This document shows, piece after piece, positions 28,677-64,000 of a stretch of 64,000 nucleotides of DNA. Position 1 is the first letter of the stretch, and each line of letters starts with the position of its first letter. The translations under genes and the position numbers were made by a program. The notes under the pieces are model-generated. The model ran no database searches. It worked only from the letters and a program-made list of their open reading frames with translations, and was not told the DNA's origin. The DNA comes from Capillidium heterosporum (lineage: Eukaryota > Entomophthoromycota > Entomophthoromycetes > Entomophthorales > Capillidiaceae): assembly GCA_016630905.1 (NCBI GenBank), contig WBMQ01000010.1, positions 496,001 through 560,000 on the forward strand. Direction: 5' to 3'.

Positions 28677-29516
28677 TTAATTACTTTCGAGATCATACCT
28701 ATCGTAGTCCTTAAAGTCATAAGCACTAACCGAGGAATCCTCGCCATCTACTTTAAAAGCAACACCTACAAATGTTAGATTAGGAAACTTGGTATTTAGG
28801 TCCACATAGGTTTTCGTTTGGTCGAATTTGGCGATCCGTAGCTTTTTCAAGTTAAGATTCGGTATAGTAAAATGATGGAGGATTTCATTTAGCTCCAACT
28901 TGATATCCAATTCGAGTTGAACGAGTTGACATAGATGATGTGATATAGCCTCAACAATAGCTTCCAGATGCTCTAGATGGTAAGTATGCAACCGAAAAAC
29001 CGTCAAAACTTCAAAGTTGGTCATGCTAATAAGGTCTAAAACTTGGCTATCTGAAAACGAATAGTAGTTCAGCTCCAAGTAGGTGATACAATTAAAGTAT
29101 GGTTTCAAAACCGTAAAGTCGTACTTGCGTTTCAAGATGAAGTGGTTTATCGAGTTGGTTTCAAATATATGCTTTAGTAAAGAAAGGTTGCGAGGTCCTA
29201 TACCGTTCACATAAATGGTAGTTAGGTTGGCATAACTGGTAAGGAAATTTGTGCATCGAAGGGTATTGAAAGGTAACTTTCGGTTAAATGCAAGTCGTCG
29301 TACCAAAGATTTGTTTACCTTTATACCGTTATCTTCACCCAGCTTTAAGTTGAAGATGTCGGCTTTGAAACCAAAATATATAAATGGAGAAAATGAAGTG
29401 TAGAATAGTTTACTTGTTCGATTTAGTTGTCTGTCAGTAAGTGGACATAGATAGCTGAAGCATAAAAGTTGAATGGAGGTTGGTAGTAACGAGAATAAAT
29501 CTTTACAGTTTGCCAT
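28677..29516 (-). CDS. F-box-like / leucine-rich protein
   Basis: Single exon, 279 aa, ATG at 29516. The N-terminus (LFSLLPTSIQLLCFSYLCPL, then DRQLNRTSKLFYTSFSPFIYF) fits a diverged F-box. The rest has irregular leucine-rich repeats (for example ITYLELNYYS, NFEVLTVFRL, LVQLELDIKL, NLKKLRIAKF). Family role: the F-box binds Skp1 in an SCF ubiquitin ligase and the repeats choose the target; neither partner can be read here. The tail is acidic (Asp/Tyr/Glu). Organised like the longer F-box/LRR gene at 38099, but clearly diverged in sequence. No introns, unlike most neighbours. Confidence 0.7.
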   Translation of the reverse strand: MANCKDLFSLLPTSIQLLCFSYLCPLTDRQLNRTSKLFYTSFSPFIYFGFKADIFNLKLGEDNGIKVNKSLVRRLAFNRKLPFNTLRCTNFLTSYANLTTIYVNGIGPRNLSLLKHIFETNSINHFILKRKYDFTVLKPYFNCITYLELNYYSFSDSQVLDLISMTNFEVLTVFRLHTYHLEHLEAIVEAISHHLCQLVQLELDIKLELNEILHHFTIPNLNLKKLRIAKFDQTKTYVDLNTKFPNLTFVGVAFKVDGEDSSVSAYDFKDYDRYDLESN

Positions 29517-33216: not shown

Positions 33217-35690
33217 AATTGAAGCTGTGGATAAGTAGCTAAAGAAAGGAATATATGTCTTGCTAAAGTTTGAGATCAGCTCTTTATATGAGCAGAAATT
33301 GTTTTTGTATAAGCCAAGGCAAATTCCAGATAATTTACTACTAGTATAATGTTTGCGATATGTTTAAGGCGCTAATAAAAACTATTTCTTTCTAGGATAT
33401 TGGCATCTTTCAGATAATAAAGTTTAATTAAGGTTAGGGATATCCAACTTATTGAAAATATACTGTTAGCAGAGATTGCTACCTTTTATAACTAAATTCT
33501 CAGGCACTACACCTTTTCATCAAATTAGTTCGAAATTTTTGCCTATATTTCAAACCTTGGTTAGCAGATTGGTTAGTCTATAACTATATACCAATGTAGG
33601 TGCTTATTCATTAATATTCAAAATTTTGACCGATTTTTAATATATTTATACATTGTATTTACATCTTTTTATGTAGAAAAGTAACTAATCGCACCAACTA
33701 TAGTAAAACAAATATATCTATATCGTAGGACCTACTAGAATTTTCTAATTAGCACATAAACTTATGCCTGTAATATTTATGATATTAAAGTTCAATCCGT
33801 CCTAAGCAACCCTTAGTTTACTTATATGAGTATAATCCACCATATACTCTAGTACTTTAACTTTAATCTTTCTAAACTCTTGAAATAGATATTTACTTAC
33901 CGATCTCTTCTATTAATCAATTTTAGATTGAAATATTTTAAAAAAACTCTTACATGCTTACCATCTTTTAGCTAAACATTCGTTTGCAACCGTCCATATG
34001 CTTAATAGAATACACACGTCTATTTGCAGTTCCTTCCTTACTCATTTCAACGGTATATAGAACTTCTACCTAGGAAGAGTGTCAGCTTATCACCACTAGG
34101 AGGCATCCCTAGCTGCAGAATTAGCTTTGACATGCTAAAAAGCTCGATTTGATTGATAATTTATGGCGAAAACTAATGAGATTTTTTATAATCTGGCTGT
34201 CAGAGTAATTAATTCTTCCTTGGAAACTTGCGTGTAGACGATGATAAAACAAATTTACCAATTATATTAATATATATATAGTGTAGATAAAAATAACAAC
34301 GTGAAAGATGACTTGATGATGACATTGTACTTAATTTTTGGTTATAACTCCAGCGGTAAGCACTGTCTATTTAATAGCAATAAAATATAGTCGCATTTGA
34401 CTCAGACAGCCATTCATTACCGGATGTTTTAATGCTCACTCTAAAAATATACATTTAAACTTCCATATCAATTCCACTATACAATAGTAAAACTAACTAT
34501 TTAGGGCACACCTGATACTAAACTTATTAAATACATCTTTTGAAAAAGGCTTCATCTTCTAATTCAAATTTAAACTTTGCAGCAAGTGTACTGAAGGCTG
34601 CAAATTGATCTTAGGCTTTGTAACCAGTTTGCAGCTCGGTTTTGATAAGGATTGGTATTTAGATCCAACTAATCTCAATACAAGTACTGAAGATAGGCCT
34701 TTACTATATGCAAGTTAGGCATAGGACCGAAGCTTTACTAAATTTAAAACTAGAAAGATAATAGAAATTTAAGTTCAATCGATGGAGGGAGTTTTAGCTG
34801 ACATTTAAAGTAATTGATATCTTTAGCACTAAAATTAAAATCTCATAAGCTTGTTAAAATCTACAATAGTTCTCAATATGAGATGAAGTTGTGTAGAATT
34901 CAAATACGAAAAACTTTGCAATTTAATTCTTACACATTTAGTTTGAAGTTTCAACCTTGCCTAGACTCTTGATGGAATTTAGTATTTGTAATAGAGTAAA
35001 AGCTTATCTATAAGTATTGAATAATTACAAGAACACCACGTAGTTTATACATATCTCTTTTTAAGCTTTCTGTCTCTAATATTAAAAGTTAGTTTAACAA
35101 TGGCTCTCTACATGTGGTTATTAATCAGTTTTATACAGATAGTTATTGAACTTCCGTTATATAAACTATTTAAGATGTAATACGGGCCCAAGTCCAAAGT
35201 TAACTAAACCTAAGTTTCTGTTTTGAAAAGCTTATCCAGTACAATATTCTAGATAACCCATCTACAAATAAATGATAATTTAAAAGGATATTTGACTAAA
35301 AGCACCACAACTTTGGATAAATTGTATAGATGTGGATTTATCTCTTAGAGTTGAATATATTACTATAACTATGTATATTTTTGAATATTTAAGGGTGTAT
35401 TTAATAAAAGTATAAAGCTAGCATCGTAGTAAATAGTGAGTTATACAAGTCGAATACATTTGCAAATGCTCAAACTTTAGCCAACCTTCATCCTATTACC
35501 ATCCCAACTTTTGCCTTAAAATCATAAATACTTTACCATCAATTTGGTGCCATCTATTTTCAGAGTTTCAATTGGTTAAAAATTTATTCCATACCTCAGC
35601 CTTGTCACAAATTGAGATGATCTAATCAAAAAATTCAAAACGCTTCCACCAAACTTTTCTCAAGACCGAATTTAGAACCAAGCTTACGAG
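33217..35690. other. Gene-poor AT-rich region
   Basis: About 2.5 kb with stops in all frames. I see no exon, RNA gene or clear repeat. The last 150 bp is the CLP1 promoter. Confidence 0.4.
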
Positions 35691-37400
35691 ATGGGAGATA
35701 CACAAGCAAAACCGACTTTGAACTTCAAGCTAAACAAAGGATTTGAGTTGAGGTTCGAAGTAGCTACCAACAAGAATTTCAAGTTGAAGGTAAACGACTC
35801 TTTCACCTCTCATTGAAATATTTATTGAATTTAGTTAGTTTCTGGTACCGCTGAAATCTTTGGCTGTAGTTTAGCGTTGAATGTAAGTTACCAATTCACC
35901 AGTATCAAGTTAGCCGTATTTACTTGGCACGGTTGTGAACTAACTATATCCTTTTTATATTTATTCTTTCAACTCTTATTTTTAAAACATAATTATCCTT
36001 AACCCTTAGTTTACGGTGAAGGCGATTTAGAAGTCGATTACATAGCGGAAGAAACCCCTATGTGCAACTACTTGAACCTACACTTAGGCTTAGAAAGCTT
36101 GCGTAAGGAAGCTAAAACCAATTCTTCTCTAGGTCCCAAATTGTTAATAGTAGGGTCCAAGGACAGTGGCAAGACTTCATTATCCAAAATCTTACTCAAC
36201 TACGCTATACGTACAAGTTGGAAACCAACTTACGTAGACTTGGATCCTAGCTTCGTAAATCCACCACCCTTTTGTCTCGACTAATATTCAACTAACTTTG
36301 ATGTAGGGTACAGTTACAGTTCCCGGAAGTATTTCAGCTACTACTTTGAGCACAATTATTGAACCCAATACCAACTTCACCGACCTCTCACAAAAGGATC
36401 AACTGGTAGGGTGGCCTTCTAGTTTGGTGTATTGGTATGGATATACCAGTCCAACATTAAACTGGAAGCTGTATTCGAATATGGCCCAACAACTCGCTAC
36501 CAACTTAAAGCACAAATTAGATTTCGATAAAGAAAGCAGTTCTTCCGGATGTATCTTTGATGGATTTGGTATCTCTGAAGAAGTAAATGTCGATAACTAC
36601 ACATTCTTAGTCGATACCTTTGATAGTAAAATATTATCCCATTCCATTTTAAATTAAATTAAATTATTTTAATTAATAGTCGATACGGTCGTCGTCGTAG
36701 GTAATGAGAAGCTTTACAACGACTTGATGCGCTCTATAGATCAATCCAAAACTCAGATTCTCAAAGTTGCGCGATCGGGTGGGGTAAGTTAGAAGATTTT
36801 TATAAACAATACTTAAATAGTACCTGATGATATATAAATTTTAGGTAGTAAGTAATGACACATTGACTCTGAAGCGGCACCATCTCAATACGATTCAACA
36901 GTATTTCTACGGTATACCTAATCTGCAGCTGTCTTTGAACCCGTCACCGGCTATCGTACAGTTCCAGGATGTCAATATCTTTCAGATCGGCCAAGGTATT
37001 TCTTATACGTTCCTTTATCTTCCTACATCTTATATTTTCTATTACTTAAATCTCATAAACAACTATATAGGATTGTTAGCCCCATCATCAGCCCTCCCTG
37101 TAGGTATGGATCGCAAATTAGATTTGCTACGAGTTACCAAAGTCAATTTGGATGAAAATTTGTTGCACGCCATTTTGGCTATAGTAGATACCGACGACTT
37201 GGATGAAAATAGTTTGGTCAAAGCTAATACATTAGGGTTTGTCTATGTGTAATTTTTTATTTCTTTAAAAATATTTAATGTTTTTTAATAGATCCGATAT
37301 TGACTTGGAAAAGTCGAATTTAACATTGTTGCTACCGTGCCCAGGTACGTTACCCAAGAGTACGTTGATTATGGGTGCCTTCAGATGGATCGAGACGTAA
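35691..37400 (+). CDS. CLP1: Clp1 polynucleotide 5'-hydroxyl kinase / mRNA 3'-end processing factor
   Basis: Eight exons: 35691-35789, 35835-35945, 36015-36254, 36307-36625, 36680-36783, 36845-36995, 37071-37248, 37292-37400; 436 aa (human 425, yeast 445). Known role: component of cleavage factor IA/II for mRNA 3' ends, and in animals also of the tRNA splicing endonuclease. N-terminal domain: GTAEIFGCSLALN and KLAVFTWHGCEL. Central ATPase domain: Walker A GSKDSGKTSL (residues 117-126), PTYVDLDPSFGTVTVPG and VDTVVVVGNEKLYNDL. C-terminal domain: SGGVVS, QQYFYG, LPVGM, GAFRWIET. The second intron is AT-AC and looks U12-dependent (separate entry); the other six are GT-AG. Lys in the P-loop is present, so nucleotide binding should be kept. 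Confidence 0.95.
35946..36014 (+). other. AT-AC (U12-type) intron in CLP1
   Basis: 69-nt intron beginning ATATCCTTTT (U12 5' consensus ATATCCTTT) and ending TTTAC. A branch-like TATCCTTAAC lies at 35994-36003 (consensus TTCCTTAAC), about 11-12 nt before the end, the distance typical of minor introns. Removing it joins HGCELT to GEGDLEVDYIAEETPM in phase 0 and at the same length as the Clp1 family. The nearest GT donor (35931) would delete the conserved Gly-Cys, and using the AG at 36008-36009 leads to a stop soon after. Confidence 0.85.
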
Positions 37401-38098
37401 TTGAAGTTGGATTGGTGTTGAAAAGTAAAGTTTAATTGAGTAGCTTGTTTAAATTATAGTACTATTTACTGTTATAGTTAACTAACTTATTTTTTCAATT
37501 GTTCAAACTTATATCTCTATAAATCATTTCAAATAACTTGAGCTTAGTAGATCAGTTTCAAAGTTAGTTTATAACTTTTATAATTTTAAAGTTTATACTA
37601 CAAGGTGATCGAGCTTGGCTCAAGTATATACAAGTAAAAGTTATATTTAGATAGAATCAACTATATCTAGTAGCTTTATTCAGCTTTAGGCCCTTCTTCC
37701 ATATAGTTGTATAGTAAACATAAGTTTGAAGTTATATTTATCCTTTTACTGATTGAAAATCCGATTGTATTAAATAGCGTTATAGCGTACGATATTTTAT
37801 CCAATAGATGGATATTTTTTCAAATTTATAGCAAACTACGAATCAATTGTTCTTCTAATTGCACCAAATCAATAAGTTTTATTGAGTTACTCTGCTTCTC
37901 AAACTCTTAGAGTTTATAAGCACTTTCTTTTATAGCAACCAGAGTTCAACAATAAGAACATTCATTTGGACACTGCGTATGAGTGGTAAAGGCAGTTATA
38001 TCCACCTATTTGTAATTATGAAAGCGCAGTTAGACTGATTGGTAGGTATTCTAGTGTATAAATACATTCAAATTGACATTAAGCCCTTTTTATTTACA
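37401..38098. other. Intergenic, no gene seen
   Basis: AT-rich. A 67-codon ORF at 37707-37910 shows no domain and was not called. TATAAATA at about 38058-38065 is well placed as promoter of the F-box gene. Confidence 0.4.
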
Positions 38099-39592
38099 AT
38101 GCAGTCTATTTTAGTCTTCCCCATTGAGGTACTTGAGGTGATAATAGGTATATTGGATTTTAAAGGGCGATACGTATTAGCTAGGCAGAACAAATTTTTA
38201 TACCAACTTGCACTTCCCTTCCTGTACTTTGAAGCAACCAGGTATAACCTTTTACCTAAACTTGTGAGACACAATTCAAATGAACATGAGCTTTGGTACC
38301 TGATGCGAAAGAAACTCAAGAAAGTCGAAAAGTACGTACGGAAAGCTAGATTTAGAATTTCAATACGTAATGTTCATATACTCAACTGTTTTAGCAACTT
38401 AGTAGACTATGGTGACTGTTTTAATAGCTTAGAAAGCTTCGAAGAGACGTTGAAAGTAGATCCGACAAAGTATCAAAGATTGATAAAGTATTCTTTTACA
38501 ATCAACTGGAATTTGAGTATAGATCTATCTAGATTAGCCGCCAACCTTTCCAGCTTGAAGTACCTATCGATTAATTCTTACGAACCTATCAAGTATACCA
38601 TTTTCAACTTCGTTTTAGAAAATCTATCTTCTTTAGACCTAGATTCTACAGCCTTGGATAACAACATCTTCCTTGCAGTTCGAAATTCTTTCCCAAACCT
38701 CAAATCTCTGGCTTTAGAATCAGTAGATGTGGTAACGGTAATTGGGCTCAAAATTCCAACTTTAAAGCGCCTACGATTGAATGGTAATAGGTTCACCGCC
38801 AATTCTGCCAACACCATAACCAAAATATTCCCCAACCTTATCGATTTAGTATTCCATCATTATGGGTATCGAGCTGAAGATGTGGATATCACCTGGCCAA
38901 CCTTCTTACAACTTTCGAAACTCAAAGCTTACTTGTATATAAAGGACCACTCTGAATACCATAGCTTAAGCGGGTTTTTTAAGCCATGTGTTGTACCTAA
39001 TTTGAAGGAGCTTACAGTTAACGGTACCATGCGAGGTAAAACTCCTCAGTTGGAGCTAAATCTATGGACCAAACTTGAAATGTTACAAGTTCGCAGCAAC
39101 TACTTTGCAAACGTTTCCAATGTCGGCAACCTCCTGAATCTCAAGAAATTACATATCAAAATGAATGCTGACAGCTGTTCTACCAGTGTGCCCATCATAT
39201 TTTCACAACTAGTCAACTTGGTTGACGTCAAGTTAAGAGGTAGCCTACTCAGCGAAGCTTTCGACTTTATCCCGACAGTAAAGTTACAGCGGCTGGAGTT
39301 ATCTATGGTAAATAGAATAACCAACCCTTTAATAAGCTTCTTAGCTACCTTGACGACCTTACATGAGCTGCAGCTTGGCGTGAAAAAGCTAATCAATAGC
39401 AACTGGGATACTGATGACTTTCACTACGCTAATTTAGATATACAGTATAAATTTGAGGATCTAATGTTCCCCTCAGCTACATTCCCAAACCTGATGGTGC
39501 TAAAGTTTTGGAATCTTCCCGACAGTATGAATAGTTGGTTTCAGCACTGTGCTCCTATACTCGTAAAGATAGAAAGGGTGGCATCAAAGTAA
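38099..39592 (+). CDS. F-box / leucine-rich repeat protein
   Basis: Single exon, 497 aa from the ATG at 38099 (the frame is open upstream but has no other ATG). An F-box-like N-terminus (VFPIEVLEVIIGILDFKGRY, LARQNKFLYQLALPFLYFEA) is followed by many leucine-rich repeats: LSSLKYLSINS, LENLSSLDLDS, FPNLKSLALES, IPTLKRLRLNG, FPNLIDLVFHH and more to the end. Family role: substrate receptor of an SCF ubiquitin ligase; the substrate is unknown. Organised like the 28677-29516 gene but longer. Intronless, as is common for expanded F-box families. Confidence 0.8.
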   Translation: MQSILVFPIEVLEVIIGILDFKGRYVLARQNKFLYQLALPFLYFEATRYNLLPKLVRHNSNEHELWYLMRKKLKKVEKYVRKARFRISIRNVHILNCFSNLVDYGDCFNSLESFEETLKVDPTKYQRLIKYSFTINWNLSIDLSRLAANLSSLKYLSINSYEPIKYTIFNFVLENLSSLDLDSTALDNNIFLAVRNSFPNLKSLALESVDVVTVIGLKIPTLKRLRLNGNRFTANSANTITKIFPNLIDLVFHHYGYRAEDVDITWPTFLQLSKLKAYLYIKDHSEYHSLSGFFKPCVVPNLKELTVNGTMRGKTPQLELNLWTKLEMLQVRSNYFANVSNVGNLLNLKKLHIKMNADSCSTSVPIIFSQLVNLVDVKLRGSLLSEAFDFIPTVKLQRLELSMVNRITNPLISFLATLTTLHELQLGVKKLINSNWDTDDFHYANLDIQYKFEDLMFPSATFPNLMVLKFWNLPDSMNSWFQHCAPILVKIERVASK

Positions 39593-41465: not shown

Positions 41466-43247
41466 TCAATGATAATCAAAGACATCGGAGTCGGGTCCCC
41501 TATACATAGCCATACCGACAGCAGCTGTCAGCAGCGCCAAGACAGGGAACCAGGTCCAAGATGAAGTTAGACACTTACGCACCGTGTCATAGAACCCATC
41601 GGGTGGGTTATTTCGGTTCGAGTTAGGTCCACTAAGTTTACTGTTACGTAAGTTGTCCTTATGTAATCCACTATCCGACTTATTAGGTACATCTGTTTGA
41701 GCGATGTGAGTGTCTTCGGTCCAGTTAGCGGCTGTTAAGCCATCAGTTGAAGCGGCACTGAAGTGTTGGTAGAATTCCCCTTCCAACTCAGTCAGCAATG
41801 TGCGTGGTGTCGACGGATGGGCGACATGCGAAGCCAAAGACGAGATGGACCTGCGGCCTTCGTCGTCTGAACTGACTATAGAGCTGCTTTTGGCGACGCG
41901 GACCGAGTTATCCTGACTAGGTAGGTGGGATGGGGTGCTAAAATTGGAGCTAGATGAGTGGGTTAGAGGAGGCCTAGGTGTCACTAAGGAATTGGTGTCG
42001 CGTCGTCGTTCCAACTGAGCGCTAAGTTCGGCGATCTTTTGAGCCTGTTGGTCGATGATGGCATCCTTCTGTTCGGCTAGTTTCAAACTGCCTTCAAGTT
42101 CAGTCGCGTGCAGCATCAACGTTTTCAACTCTTTCTTTAACGCCTTGAGCTTGTCATCGGACTGGCGTCTTGAAGCCAAAAGTACACGGTTGGCCTTTTC
42201 AAGCTCTTTGATCTTGGCATTAAGTCGTTCAGTAATTTCCTTTTGTTCGTCGGGATCATATTCTTTCTCGTCGAACTTGGGACCAGGAATCTCGGTGTTA
42301 AAGGTTGTTCGTGGGTTGGGGGTAACGGTAGGAGGTATGCTAGTTGCATAATGTGGAGTTGGTGCCGGATAGACCATGCTGGAACGCCGTTCGACGTTTT
42401 TGGTGTTTACGATAGATTGGCTCTTGGTCCTTTCAATCAAGCTGCGATTGGACTTCTCGAGCTCACGTATCTTCTTACTGTAGTTCTCGTATCCGATTTT
42501 GTATGACTCCAGTTCGATGAGAAGCAGTCGCGTCTCCCGCCTGCCATTCTTCTCAAGCCGTTCTTTCTCAGCGACTACGCTGTCTAATTTGGTGCGCAAA
42601 GCTGAGTTGGCGACTTCCAACTCATTTATGTCATCTGAATCTTGACGCGACATAGTTCGTCGCATCAACCGATTGTGAGTAGGTGTCGAAGGCTCCTCCA
42701 CTTTATTGTGGAACTCCTCATGCGAATAACTGTTGCGAAGTGGTGGTGCTTGCGCCTTCTGTACTTGAGGCACCGGTAACGACGTCAGCTTGTCGCTGAG
42801 CTCCTCCAGTTGCGTCTTCAACTTTGCATTCTCATCTAAAATAGACCTTCGCACTTTGAAAGCTTGGTCCAACTCTACAATATTAAATAAAGTCTATAAA
42901 AATGATGTACCTTGTTCCTTTTCAGCAATTATGTTGTAGGCCTTGGAAAGTAAACTTCGTAGGTCCAATGATGTACTGGGGCCTCCGTTGATGGAAGCAT
43001 GTTCTGACATGGAGACCGAAACCTCACTCCTATTATCAAAGCTATATATCGAGTCGTTATCCCTGTCAATGTAAGGTCCACCCTCTAAAATACTACCGTT
43101 GGACTTTTTGGCTTTCAACTTGGGATTTTCTCGGAAGCTGACTGGAGAAGCTACTCTAGGCCGTTCATTAGTGGTAAACATGTTGTCCTTTGATGTCTCT
43201 CTCTGTAAAGGCTGAACGTCTATTCCAAGTTCTTCATCCATGACCAT
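41466..43247 (-). CDS. Tail-anchored coiled-coil protein (paralog 1)
   Basis: Two exons, 43247-42911 and 42874-41466; 581 aa. Order: an acidic N-terminus MVMDEELGIDVQPLQ; a Ser/Asp-rich disordered part; a helical segment (LLSKAYNIIAEKEQELDQAF) that begins a long interrupted coiled coil (about residues 95-420, heptads such as LDENAKLKTQLEEL, LESYKIGYENYSKKIRELEK, IIDQQAQKIAELSAQLERR); a Ser/Thr/Pro-rich linker with a conserved FYQHF..TDGLTAANWTED motif; and one hydrophobic segment with a short tail LLTAAVGMAMYRGPDSDVFD. The C-terminal segment suggests a tail-anchored membrane protein facing the cytosol, possibly an organelle-to-motor linker; this is inference. Paralog 2 lies 6 kb away on the same strand. 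Confidence 0.8.
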
Positions 43248-49070: not shown

Positions 49071-50957
49071 TCAGTAGTAATCAAAGACGTCGGAATCAGG
49101 ACCGCGGTACATAGCCATACCTACAGCCGCCGTCAAAAGGGCAACGAATCTACACCATTTCCAGAACCCGGCCAGGCAGCGTCGAACGGTATGTACGAAA
49201 CCAACAGGAGGGCTGATTCTACGCGCGTTGGGTGGGTAGAGTGGTGTGTTTTCATCGTGGCTAACTGGTTCGCCACTTACAGTCTCCAAATCATCTTCAG
49301 AATGTGTGGGAGAGGTTGTCCGATTGATAGCTTGCACAGTACTGCTAGATGGGTTATCTAAATCATCAGGGCCCCAGTCATCGTTGAACTGGGTGGGTAC
49401 ATCTAAAGGGGAGAAGTGGGCATCCTCGGTCCAGTTAGCGGCTGTTAAGCCGTCGGTAGTTGTTGTGTTGAAGTGACGGTAGAACTCGCCCTCTAGCTCG
49501 GTCAGCAACGTACGTCGAGCGGGGCGGTGTACAGTCGACGAGGCAGAGGCCGACGCTGACCTCTTGTGCGAGTTCTCGGGGTTAAACCTGGGGTCGTTGT
49601 GAACCATGCGTACCGATGTGTTGTGGCTGCGCAAATTGTGGGTCCCATTGTAGTTGGAGTTGGATACGGAGGACACCGACGACCTAGGGCTGAAAAAGGA
49701 TGAGAAGATGCTACCGCGCTGATTTTCCAAGCGTGCGTTGAGCTCGGCGATCTTCTGAGCCTGCTGGTCGATGATAACGCTGTTCTTTTCGGCCAACTTA
49801 AGGCTACCCTCCAGCTCGGCGGCGTGTAGTTTGAGTGTACGCAGCTCCTTCTTCAATGCCTTGAGCTTGTCGTCGGTTTGGCGCTTGGAAGATACCAATT
49901 CGCGGTTAACTTTCTCCAACTCTTTGATGTTATCTAGCAATCGGAAGGTTAGCTCCTTCTGCTCATCAGGGTCGTCGTCCTTCTCTTCAACGATGGGGTT
50001 ACTCAGTTCATTGTTGAACGTCGTTCGCAAGTTGGGAGTCATGGCCAGTGGCAAGCTAGATGAGTAAAGTGGGGCTGGTGATGGGTAGACTAAACTTGAA
50101 CGTCGCTCCTGATTCCTATTACCTTGGATTGATACACTCCGCGACCTTTCGATCAGATTCTGGTTGGACTCCTCCAGTTCTTTGATCTTTTTGCTGTAGT
50201 TCTCATAGCCCTTCTTGTAGGACTCGAGCTCCTTGAGCAATACCCTGGTCTCTTTCCTCCCATTCTTTTCAAGGCTCTCTTTTTCGGCTAGTACCGAGTC
50301 TAACCTTGCTTGGAGGGCTGAGTTCAAATTTTCCAACTCATTTATGTTATCAACTTCCTGTCGCATCATGCTTCTCCGATGGAATCTGGCTTGAGTAGGT
50401 GTTGGAGGCTCGGCAGATTGGTTGTGGGAATCTTCACCTACATAGCTGTTTCGAAGTGGTGGAGTCTGCGCCTTGGGTGCCGAAGGTATCGGTAAGGCCA
50501 TTAGGTTGTCACTCAGCTCTTCGAGCTGTGCCTTCAACTTTGCATTTTCATCTAAAATAGTCCTTCGGACTTTAAATGCCTGGTCCAGTTCTAAGAAATG
50601 AATATATATTTATATAATAAATGTACCTTGCTCCTTTTCAGCGATGACATTGTAAGCTTTCGAAAGCAAGCTCTTTAGATCCGATGAAGAGTGTGAAGAG
50701 CCTGTTATTGAGGTGGTATCGGATATTGAAACGGCGACATCACTTTTGGTATCGAAGCTAATTAATGAGTCGTTATCCTTATCTGTATAAGGTACCCCTT
50801 CCAATATACTGCCATTGGACTTCTTTGTTCTCAATTTGGGTTTATCTTTGAAGCTGACTGGTGAAGCTACTCTGGGCTTGCCCCCGTTGATAAACAAGTT
50901 ATCTCTAGATGCCTCCTTCTGCAGTGGTTGAACGTCTATTCCAAGCTCTTCGTCCAT
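49071..50957 (-). CDS. Tail-anchored coiled-coil protein (paralog 2)
   Basis: Two exons, 50957-50627 and 50590-49071; 616 aa. Same architecture and same intron position and phase as paralog 1 (Q|E after AEKEQ). Conserved: N-terminus MDEELGIDVQPLQ; VASPVSF and KSNGSILEG; the coiled coil starting at SLLSKAYNVIAEKEQELDQA; GYENYSKKIKELEESNQNLI; the ALKKELRTLKLHAAELEGSL and AQKIAELNARLE blocks; TELEGEFYRHFN and TDGLTAANWTED; and the membrane tail LLTAAVGMAMYRGPDSDVFD. The Ser/Pro-rich regions between are poorly conserved and differ in length. It is more GC-rich than paralog 1. Function unknown; a dimeric membrane-bound tether is inferred. Confidence 0.8.
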
Positions 50958-62093: not shown

Positions 62094-63776
62094 TTATATA
62101 TTATATATTTTACCGCCCCACATCTTACTAAGCTTCCTAGCTTCATCGACATGACCGTCTTTGACCAAAATCTGCAAGACACCTCTCAACCCACTATACA
62201 AAGCACCATGAATCCAACCCGCATTATGGTCGGTCGATTCCTCCGTAAAGACAGCATTAGCCTCCATTTTATTAAATCTAGGTAGATCTCGCACTTTATC
62301 CTGCAAACTCTGGTAGTAGCCTACACCACCCATACTATAAGAATCCATCTGCCAACATTTACGCACCATATTGCCCTCTTTGTAGCTATCTCGAACCATT
62401 TCTCCATGGATTTCGACTAATTTGTCAATAGCCAGCATCTCAATTTCATCATCGGTAGCCCCTTCATGAACTTCCAAACGATCACCAAAGATGTAAGAGA
62501 ATATAATGACCTTGGAATCACCATGACTTGGATAGATGATAGTTCGTTCGAATGAATTAAAGTCGGAGAAGCCTTGGCCGGCATAAACTTTAGGGTCCCA
62601 GAACCTAGTTTCGAACTTGAGTAGGACCTTGCAGATGCGGACGTGAAATTGATTTTTGATGACATTCGAAAGGCCATCCGATAATTTAGGAAGTTTCCAA
62701 TGGCGTACGACGGGTAGTGGTGCAGCTACTATAGCGTAGTCGTAGTTGACTTGATGGAAAGGTGCATTCAGCTTAATCTCCTTTTTATACTTCAAACTTA
62801 CTTTGTCGGTAAAGTTCAAAGCATAGACTTTACCGTAACGTATTGATACCTGTTTGGTAGCTAAAACTTTACGTAAAAGTTGGGGGAGCCTGCTCATACC
62901 ACCATCTATTTGGTTCCAGCCATGATACTTCGTGAAATAGGAGATCTGGGTTGTACCGAATACGTATGGAATTAAGTGGAGTTTATCAGCAATATCAGGT
63001 GTTCTTTCATTCAAGTAATCGATGAGCTTGAAGACGGTCTTACATGCTGGATCGGGTCTGACTATTCCATCTGGAAATGTTAGGTTTGTGTAGAAGCGCA
63101 TAGCACCCAGTTCGTAGTAGTCGTACTTGCCTCCACCTGGGAAGTGGTAGGTCCAAACCCTACCACCCACTCGTTCCTTGTTGGCTTCGATCATCTCCAC
63201 CTTGTAGTTTAGTTGGGTCATATTCAATAATAGAGCACTGAACATACCCGACATACCGGCACCCACTATACCAATCGATTTTGGTTTCTGGTTAGCTACA
63301 AAGGACCCTGAGTTCTTGAAGTCTTGAACAGCATTGTACCTCCAGGCGTTGTTCTCGTCATTCAAATCGAAGGTGGATGGAATGAAGTTGAACTTTTTAC
63401 TTTGACCTAATAAACAAGTCCCTTGCCATACCTTTATGCAGTAATCCTTATCGAGTATAGCATCTTTCTTAGAAGGAGTCGCCCATACGAATTTGGTGGG
63501 CCTTTGATCACCTAAAGTGACCTTCCCTACTAACTTATCATTTGAATGGTAACTGCATCCTCCGTAGGTAAATTTTAGAGTTTCGACGGAGTCGATGTCG
63601 TTAGTAAAGTGTATATTTATGTTGGCTAAGGAGTCTTGAGTGATTTGATTGGCTTCGAACTTCAATATCTCAATTGAGTTGGAGAGACATAGTAGATTTG
63701 GTGATTGCCAAAAGTAATCGACACTGCGTTGGATGGTTAGCCCGGCCATAAAGTTGGGGAGGTTAAAGTACTGCAT
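62094..63776 (-). CDS. L-amino-acid/monoamine oxidase, FAD-dependent (copy 2, intact)
   Basis: Single exon, 560 aa from ATG 63776. Order: an N-terminal beta-rich region of about 150 aa (QYFNLPNFMAGLTIQRSVDY..., with YGGCSYH and CLLGQSKKFNF) not found in standard oxidases; FAD-binding GIVGAGMSGMFSALLL with EANKERVGGRVWT; YYELGAMRFY and an aromatic substrate-domain stretch (QIDGGMSRLPQLL); NYDYAIVAAPLPVVRHW; and the C-terminal FAD contact STDHNAGWIHGALYSGLRGV. Family role: oxidative deamination of an amino acid or amine to the keto acid or aldehyde, ammonia and hydrogen peroxide. No obvious signal peptide. Intronless, unlike most genes here. Confidence 0.9.
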   Translation of the reverse strand: MQYFNLPNFMAGLTIQRSVDYFWQSPNLLCLSNSIEILKFEANQITQDSLANINIHFTNDIDSVETLKFTYGGCSYHSNDKLVGKVTLGDQRPTKFVWATPSKKDAILDKDYCIKVWQGTCLLGQSKKFNFIPSTFDLNDENNAWRYNAVQDFKNSGSFVANQKPKSIGIVGAGMSGMFSALLLNMTQLNYKVEMIEANKERVGGRVWTYHFPGGGKYDYYELGAMRFYTNLTFPDGIVRPDPACKTVFKLIDYLNERTPDIADKLHLIPYVFGTTQISYFTKYHGWNQIDGGMSRLPQLLRKVLATKQVSIRYGKVYALNFTDKVSLKYKKEIKLNAPFHQVNYDYAIVAAPLPVVRHWKLPKLSDGLSNVIKNQFHVRICKVLLKFETRFWDPKVYAGQGFSDFNSFERTIIYPSHGDSKVIIFSYIFGDRLEVHEGATDDEIEMLAIDKLVEIHGEMVRDSYKEGNMVRKCWQMDSYSMGGVGYYQSLQDKVRDLPRFNKMEANAVFTEESTDHNAGWIHGALYSGLRGVLQILVKDGHVDEARKLSKMWGGKIYNI

Positions 63777-64000
63777 TCTACTAACCACAGAGCCAAACTA
63801 CGAAACTATCTGTTTATATACCTGATATTACAAATTTAAAAGTGAGCTTATCCAAGTGTTAGCGATGTAAAGTTTTATCGATTTATAATTTACAAGACCA
63901 ATTGAATTACGCAAGATATATAAAATGATTTATAAGTTCGCTTATATGAGTGATCATTTTTCAACGATAAACTATTCCAATTGTTTTCTGCACTTAAATG
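63777..64000. other. Promoter side of oxidase copy 2, window edge
   Basis: AT-rich; a TATATA element near 63813 and TATATAA at about 63917. No exon seen before the window ends. Confidence 0.4.

Follow-up and report, generated by a model that had tools for sequence, protein, structure and literature searches.

CLP1 and its second intron

The DNA analyzed here (hereafter, the window) is a 64,000-nucleotide (nt) stretch of Capillidium heterosporum contig WBMQ01000010.1, positions 496,001 to 560,000 of the forward strand, and coordinates refer to the window unless a contig is named. It contains a gene for CLP1, a core RNA-processing factor (Table 1), the second intron of which has AT and AC termini and very probably belongs to the U12-type introns, which are removed by the minor spliceosome. 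Residues 1-254 of the CLP1 model matched solved chains 8hmy_E (PDB; expectation value, E, 1.6e-49) and 4c0b_A (E ~2e-23), which we take to be human and yeast CLP1, respectively. Public homologues, of which the best 120 of 330 formed our comparison set, reached up to 48% identity over 98% of the protein among those listed; the top two were unnamed (48% and 47%) and were followed by named early-diverging fungi at 39-46% identity.

The AT-AC segment reads ATATCCTTTTTATATTTATTCTTTCAACTCTTATTTTTAAAACATAATTATCCTTAACCCTTAGTTTAC. Its first bases conform to the U12-type 5' splice site consensus RTATCCTT, and a perfect branch motif, TCCTTAAC, lies at 35996-36003, in keeping with the TCCTTRAC element expected near the 3' end of such introns; the branch adenosine is likely that at 36002. 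An initial annotation, made from the letters alone, had described these termini and a branch-like motif about 11-12 nt from the intron end, and the letters are as it described them, with 11 nt following the motif. The combined pattern ATATCCTTN{25,55}CCTTRACN{7,16}AC matched the window only once, at this intron, compared to a mean of 0.01 matches in 100 dinucleotide shuffles, a single one of which contained a match. The extended 5' motif RTATCCTTTT occurred twice, at the CLP1 5' splice site and at 35291 on the minus strand.

Removal of the segment in phase 0 yields HGCELT-GEGDLEV with the usual CLP1 spacing, as had been claimed: of 121 aligned CLP1 rows (the window's own row included), 92 have 15 residues in the stretch spanning the junction and 14 more have 14 residues. 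Retention places an in-frame TAA within the branch motif. The remaining six CLP1 introns are GT-AG introns of 45-75 nt that lack both U12 motifs, and the earlier statement that other introns are of this ordinary kind holds with CLP1 as its scope.

Table 1. Positions of the CLP1 gene, its introns and the splice signals of intron 2 in the window
Feature	Position	Strand	Length	Remarks
CLP1 gene	35691..37400	+		8 exons; spliced model of 432 amino acids; stop at 37398-37400, counted from exon lengths
Intron 1, GT-AG	35790..35834	+	45 nt	ordinary; spliced model
Intron 2, AT-AC, probably U12-type	35946..36014	+	69 nt	phase 0; profile ranking and motif pattern
U12-type 5' splice site ATATCCTTTT	35946..35955	+		perfect motif; can pair with U11 5' end and U6atac candidate
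Branch site TATCCTTAAC	35994..36003	+		from sequence; can pair with U12 candidates
3' splice site TTTAC	36010..36014	+		from sequence
Intron 3, GT-AG	36255..36306	+	52 nt	ordinary; spliced model
Intron 4, GT-AG	36626..36679	+	54 nt	ordinary; donor picked by eye
Intron 5, GT-AG	36784..36844	+	61 nt	ordinary; spliced model
Intron 6, GT-AG	36996..37070	+	75 nt	ordinary; spliced model
Intron 7, GT-AG	37237..37291	+	55 nt	ordinary; donor picked by eye

Ranking of alternative splicings

Every GT-AG, GC-AG and AT-AC solution with a donor in 35870-36000, an acceptor in 35960-36109 and a length of 25-220 nt was scored, together with retention, against a CLP1 profile built from those listed homologues (105 of 120) in which the junction is regular. 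The window's protein was left out of this profile, the underlying alignment of which had originally been built with it included. Among the 232 solutions (127 AT-AC, 76 GT-AG, 28 GC-AG and the retained form), the in-frame AT-AC intron 35946-36014 ranked first with 461.8 bits, compared to 83.1 bits when the segment was retained.

The junction in CLP1 of other fungi

In the public Massospora cicadina CLP1 protein, which reads HGCELT-ISFLVTSLYHVISLSLTRFAFY-AEGSCT, a 22-residue insert sits exactly at the intron position. On back-translation, ATATCCTT can start at base 1 of this insert and TCCTTAAC at base 43, and the insert can end in AC, while none of 20000 shuffled inserts permitted all three features, the branch motif being sought in a range around its observed place. 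The insert thus looks like an unspliced minor intron carried over into a gene model.

We scored the CELTGE site as broken if 5 or more of its 6 residues were missing or 12 or more residues were inserted. By this measure, 10 of 23 rows from named early-diverging fungi were broken (Massospora, Entomophthora, two Gigaspora, Cetraspora, Dentiscutata, Acaulospora, Entrophospora, one Syncephalis and Blyttiomyces), compared to 0 of the 97 other rows among the 120 listed homologues. The grouping was set after the breaks had been noticed and covers every such name in the set of 120, 23 in total. Along the protein, the early-diverging rows had a median of 1 break, and the next highest separate place had 6, compared to 10 at CELTGE; the 97 other rows have break peaks elsewhere in CLP1, of up to 18 rows. 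The Entomophthora and Blyttiomyces models start downstream of the junction, and some of the breaks may have other causes, such as fragments, missed ordinary introns or, in Zoopagales, a real deletion. Taken together, the breaks suggest that a hidden intron is systematically misannotated in public CLP1 gene models of early-diverging fungi. Should fungal CLP1 entries in public databases often be in error here, as these data suggest, minor introns would be hidden from surveys that rely on annotation.

We built a CLP1 tree from the window's protein and 32 hand-chosen members of the 120 (33 rows in all), in which the window's protein was sister to Entomophthora, Massospora and two unnamed proteins (support 100/99), which places C. 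heterosporum beside the Entomophthorales, as a relative of insect-killing fungi. Its branch length of 1.09 and deviating composition make its exact position uncertain.

Introns of the same type elsewhere in the genome

Across the 29.5 Mb genome (44 contigs), the AT-AC pattern yielded 23 rows at 21 places, compared to 5 for a reversed control. Twelve of the 21 places, representing 11 distinct introns with that of CLP1 included, were judged real on the strength of sensible open frames on both sides, a sorting that was partly subjective and used loose frame limits (12 residues before and 8 after). L010 (C22:15907, on a 38 kb contig) is identical in sequence to L014 (C23:3056318, on a 3.1 Mb contig), either because the assembly holds the locus twice or because it was duplicated recently, and the pair was counted once. 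Nine places were dropped as coding sequence or chance matches (L003, L006, L008, L011, L012, L013, L016/L017, L021 and L022/L023). Since some open frame exists at the loose limits in L006, L011, L012, L013, L016 and L021, this sorting was partly a matter of judgement; L008 has a T-rich core, yet lacks a qualifying open frame, and may or may not be an intron.

Nine joined AT-AC peptides, L020 having been left out, and one joined GT-AG peptide were compared with Pfam. Five of the nine matched a family across the junction: AAA (7e-7), ChAPs (8e-11), XPG_N (6e-24), LplA-B_cat (1e-13) and IF-2B, the last at 0.006, below the family cut-off. L004, L007, L009 and L010 had no Pfam match; L004 may be NR2C2AP and L010 a transportin. 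The idea that the XPG intron corresponds to a known human AT-AC intron found no support among the matches listed, and we make no such claim.

An equally strict U12 pattern with GT-AG termini yielded 4 rows at 3 places, compared to 2 in the reversed control. One of these, L033, is good, and its joined peptide matched the TCP-1 chaperonin family Cpn60_TCP1 (3e-35); L032 is doubtful, and L034/L035 were rejected. The strict tally is thus ~11 AT-AC to 1-2 GT-AG introns, a lower bound given that weaker minor introns escape both patterns.

Probable minor-spliceosome RNAs

The initial annotation predicted that the genome would encode the U11, U12, U4atac and U6atac RNAs as well as U11/U12 proteins. 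Of these, a U11 small nuclear RNA (snRNA) gene was found at C32:604887-605085, scoring 59.5 bits against an Rfam cut-off of 39 (E 4e-9) and starting with AAAAAGGG; the U11 model exceeded its cut-off in none of 14 control genomes, all of them prokaryotic. For U6atac there is a candidate at C6:224221-224337 (28.7 bits, below the cut-off of 33; E 4e-4), in which the AGGAGAGA box, GCAUCUCCCC and GGACGGAA align with the family. Two candidates were obtained for U12, both below the cut-off of 53: L036 (C12:2620866-2621013; 27.6 bits, E 0.02), which agrees with 19 of 23 Rfam 5'-end columns, and L037 (C41:1204507-1204606; 22.6 bits, E 0.3), which agrees with 20 of 23. Ordinary U6 was present in two copies of ~81 bits each. 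The prediction thus held for U11 and has candidates for U6atac and U12; U4atac and the proteins PDCD7 and zf-U11-48K went unconfirmed in searches too insensitive to establish absence.

The predicted pairing of these RNAs with the CLP1 intron involves, at the 5' splice site ATATCCTTTTT, 9 base pairs (bp) with the U11 5' end and 7 bp with the U6atac box, and at the branch site 8 bp with L036 or 5 bp with L037.

Three sequence patterns were tried as a route to U4atac, sought as the partner of the U6atac candidate. TTGGCA...CCCC...RRACRR gave 7 rows compared to 3 in a reversed control, none of them with the AATGA..GAGG K-turn. AATGA...GAGG...TGCYAA gave 11 rows compared to 6, none forming a convincing duplex with U6atac or U6; this pattern also missed ordinary U4 and so failed its own positive control. 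TTCCGTYYY...GGGG gave 14 rows, two of which were the opposite strand of the U6atac gene, compared to 27 in the control. The best-pairing candidate, L062, lacked a K-turn or U4-like hairpin by eye.

Interpretation and alternatives

We conclude, with a probability of roughly 95%, that 35946-36014 is a genuine U12-type AT-AC intron in CLP1 of an Entomophthorales-lineage fungus, and that the genome itself encodes the minor spliceosome that removes it. This identity, proposed in the initial annotation, draws on the presence of both motifs, the best splicing fit, the sister introns, the U11 gene, the U6atac and U12 candidates and the Massospora insert. We infer the following order of events from what is established for the well-studied minor spliceosome. 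The U11 5' end would pair with ATATCCTTTT at the 5' splice site, and the GUAAGG of U12 would pair with TCCTTAAC, leaving the adenosine at 36002 bulged. U4atac, U6atac and U5 would then join, and U6atac would displace U11 from the 5' splice site. Two transesterifications would unite position 35945 with 36015, giving the HGCELT-GEGDLEV junction in phase 0; were the intron kept, the CLP1 frame would end at the TAA in the branch motif.

Several observations weigh against this conclusion. A default U12 search at E 0.001 gave no match in the genome, and at E 10 weak matches to U12 and U6atac appeared in 7 and 11, respectively, of the 14 prokaryote genomes; the U12 and U6atac candidates therefore rest on their motifs more than on their scores. 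Moreover, two U12-like genes compete, L037 having the slightly better 5' end and L036 the better full-length score. The U12-U6atac helix I, which reaches 10 bp in L037, was equalled by 147 of 2000 shuffles for L037 and by 178 of 2000 for L036, and was consequently not used as support. The Rfam U4atac model had no match genome-wide at E 10, in a search of low sensitivity that a divergent RNA could escape. Models of the U11/U12 proteins PDCD7 and zf-U11-48K likewise gave no candidate in the genome, in an insensitive search confined to these two families. Four of the 12 kept AT-AC places (L001, L005, L018 and L020) have no in-frame stop within the intron. Finally, the runner-up in the splicing ranking, at 451.5 bits, was another AT-AC solution, 35959-36003, the ends of which lack U12 splice-site motifs, and the top GT-AG solution followed only 15 bits below the first.

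That last solution belongs to the alternative in which the AT-AC motifs are there by chance and an ordinary U2-type GT-AG intron, running from a donor at 35935 or 35932 to an acceptor at 36021 or 36009, overlaps the segment. Four such solutions remain in frame (446.5, 445.3, 440.9 and 437.6 bits), and the gene models of Gigasporales in public databases look as though their donor had been placed within this Gly codon. However, all four change or remove residues of HGCELT/GEGDL, fall 15 to 24 bits below the AT-AC intron and leave two perfect U12 motifs without explanation, and we consider this alternative very unlikely. Slightly less probable still is that the AT-AC ends are real but the CLP1 intron is removed by the major spliceosome. 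Such removal is known for some AT-AC introns elsewhere; those introns are not known to carry the pair formed by ATATCCTT and TCCTTAAC, both of which are perfect here, and the genome contains the U11 gene along with the U6atac and U12 candidates. A length of 69 nt, divisible by three, might suggest that the segment is coding, or that the motif arose by chance in a pseudogene. The in-frame TAA, the drop to the score of the retained product and the intact remainder of CLP1 argue against either possibility, to which we attach next to no weight.

With a U12-type intron as the preferred interpretation, its age can be considered, and here we see the odds as about even. The CLP1 minor intron may be old in fungi, common to Entomophthorales and Glomeromycota and perhaps present in Zoopagales and chytrids as well. 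It would still be AT-AC in living species and would have gone unnoticed because AT-AC termini are rarely permitted by gene callers. The lineage of C. heterosporum would keep an almost purely AT-AC set, perhaps because minor introns with GT-AG ends drift into the major class, whereas those with AT-AC ends do not do so easily.

Comparison with published minor introns

This rare type of intron is already known in fungi. Minor introns have been reported in Rhizophagus irregularis (205) and Basidiobolus meristosporus (249), which represent other fungal lineages, and also in Spizellomyces and Neocallimastigomycetes, while no convincing support was described for Ascomycota and Basidiomycota (PMC10639083, main text). 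All four minor snRNAs were reported for Rhizophagus, and Zoopagomycota, the larger group around the Entomophthorales lineage and one of which Basidiobolus is the only member that we saw named, were reconstructed with a low ancestral minor-intron density (PMC10639083). Compared to the counts for Basidiobolus and Rhizophagus, the strict tally obtained here is far smaller, although it is a lower bound and the comparison is not like-for-like. Few U12 introns, both AT-AC and GT-AG, were likewise described for the zygomycete fungi Rhizopus oryzae and Phycomyces (PMC2846911). In Phycomyces, however, the two kinds are about equally frequent (8-9 AT-AC and 8-12 GT-AG, by two methods; PMC2846911), whereas AT-AC dominates the strict counts here. 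This ratio is unusual beside the species in the literature compared, Blastocystis apart. The Blastocystis set is likewise dominated by AT-AC introns (196 of 253), but this organism is a stramenopile and its minor introns are shorter, averaging just under 42 bp (PMC10639083).

The main text of PMC10639083 does not contain the words Conidiobolus, Entomophthor, Massospora or CLP1, and its supplements may list this species; among the matches listed for literature on minor introns with Entomophthorales, Zoopagomycota or CLP1, none was evidently about the CLP1 intron. What appears to be new is therefore an additional lineage, one that we did not see named for minor introns in the literature consulted. 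A likely working minor spliceosome would thereby be placed in a small genome of the Entomophthorales lineage, and with a set as compact as about a dozen introns, the loss of minor introns and the retention of AT-AC termini could be traced.

Other features of the window

CLP1 is flanked by open reading frames at 28677-29516 (minus strand) and 38039-39592 (plus strand) that are presumably F-box/leucine-rich-repeat-like. A long open reading frame at 62094-63788 (minus strand) looks like one for a flavin amine or L-amino-acid oxidase. Two related, coiled-coil-like proteins encoded at 41466-42872 and 49071-50537 (minus strand) have near-identical ends (MYRGPDSDVFDYH/Y), which by eye suggests a local duplication.
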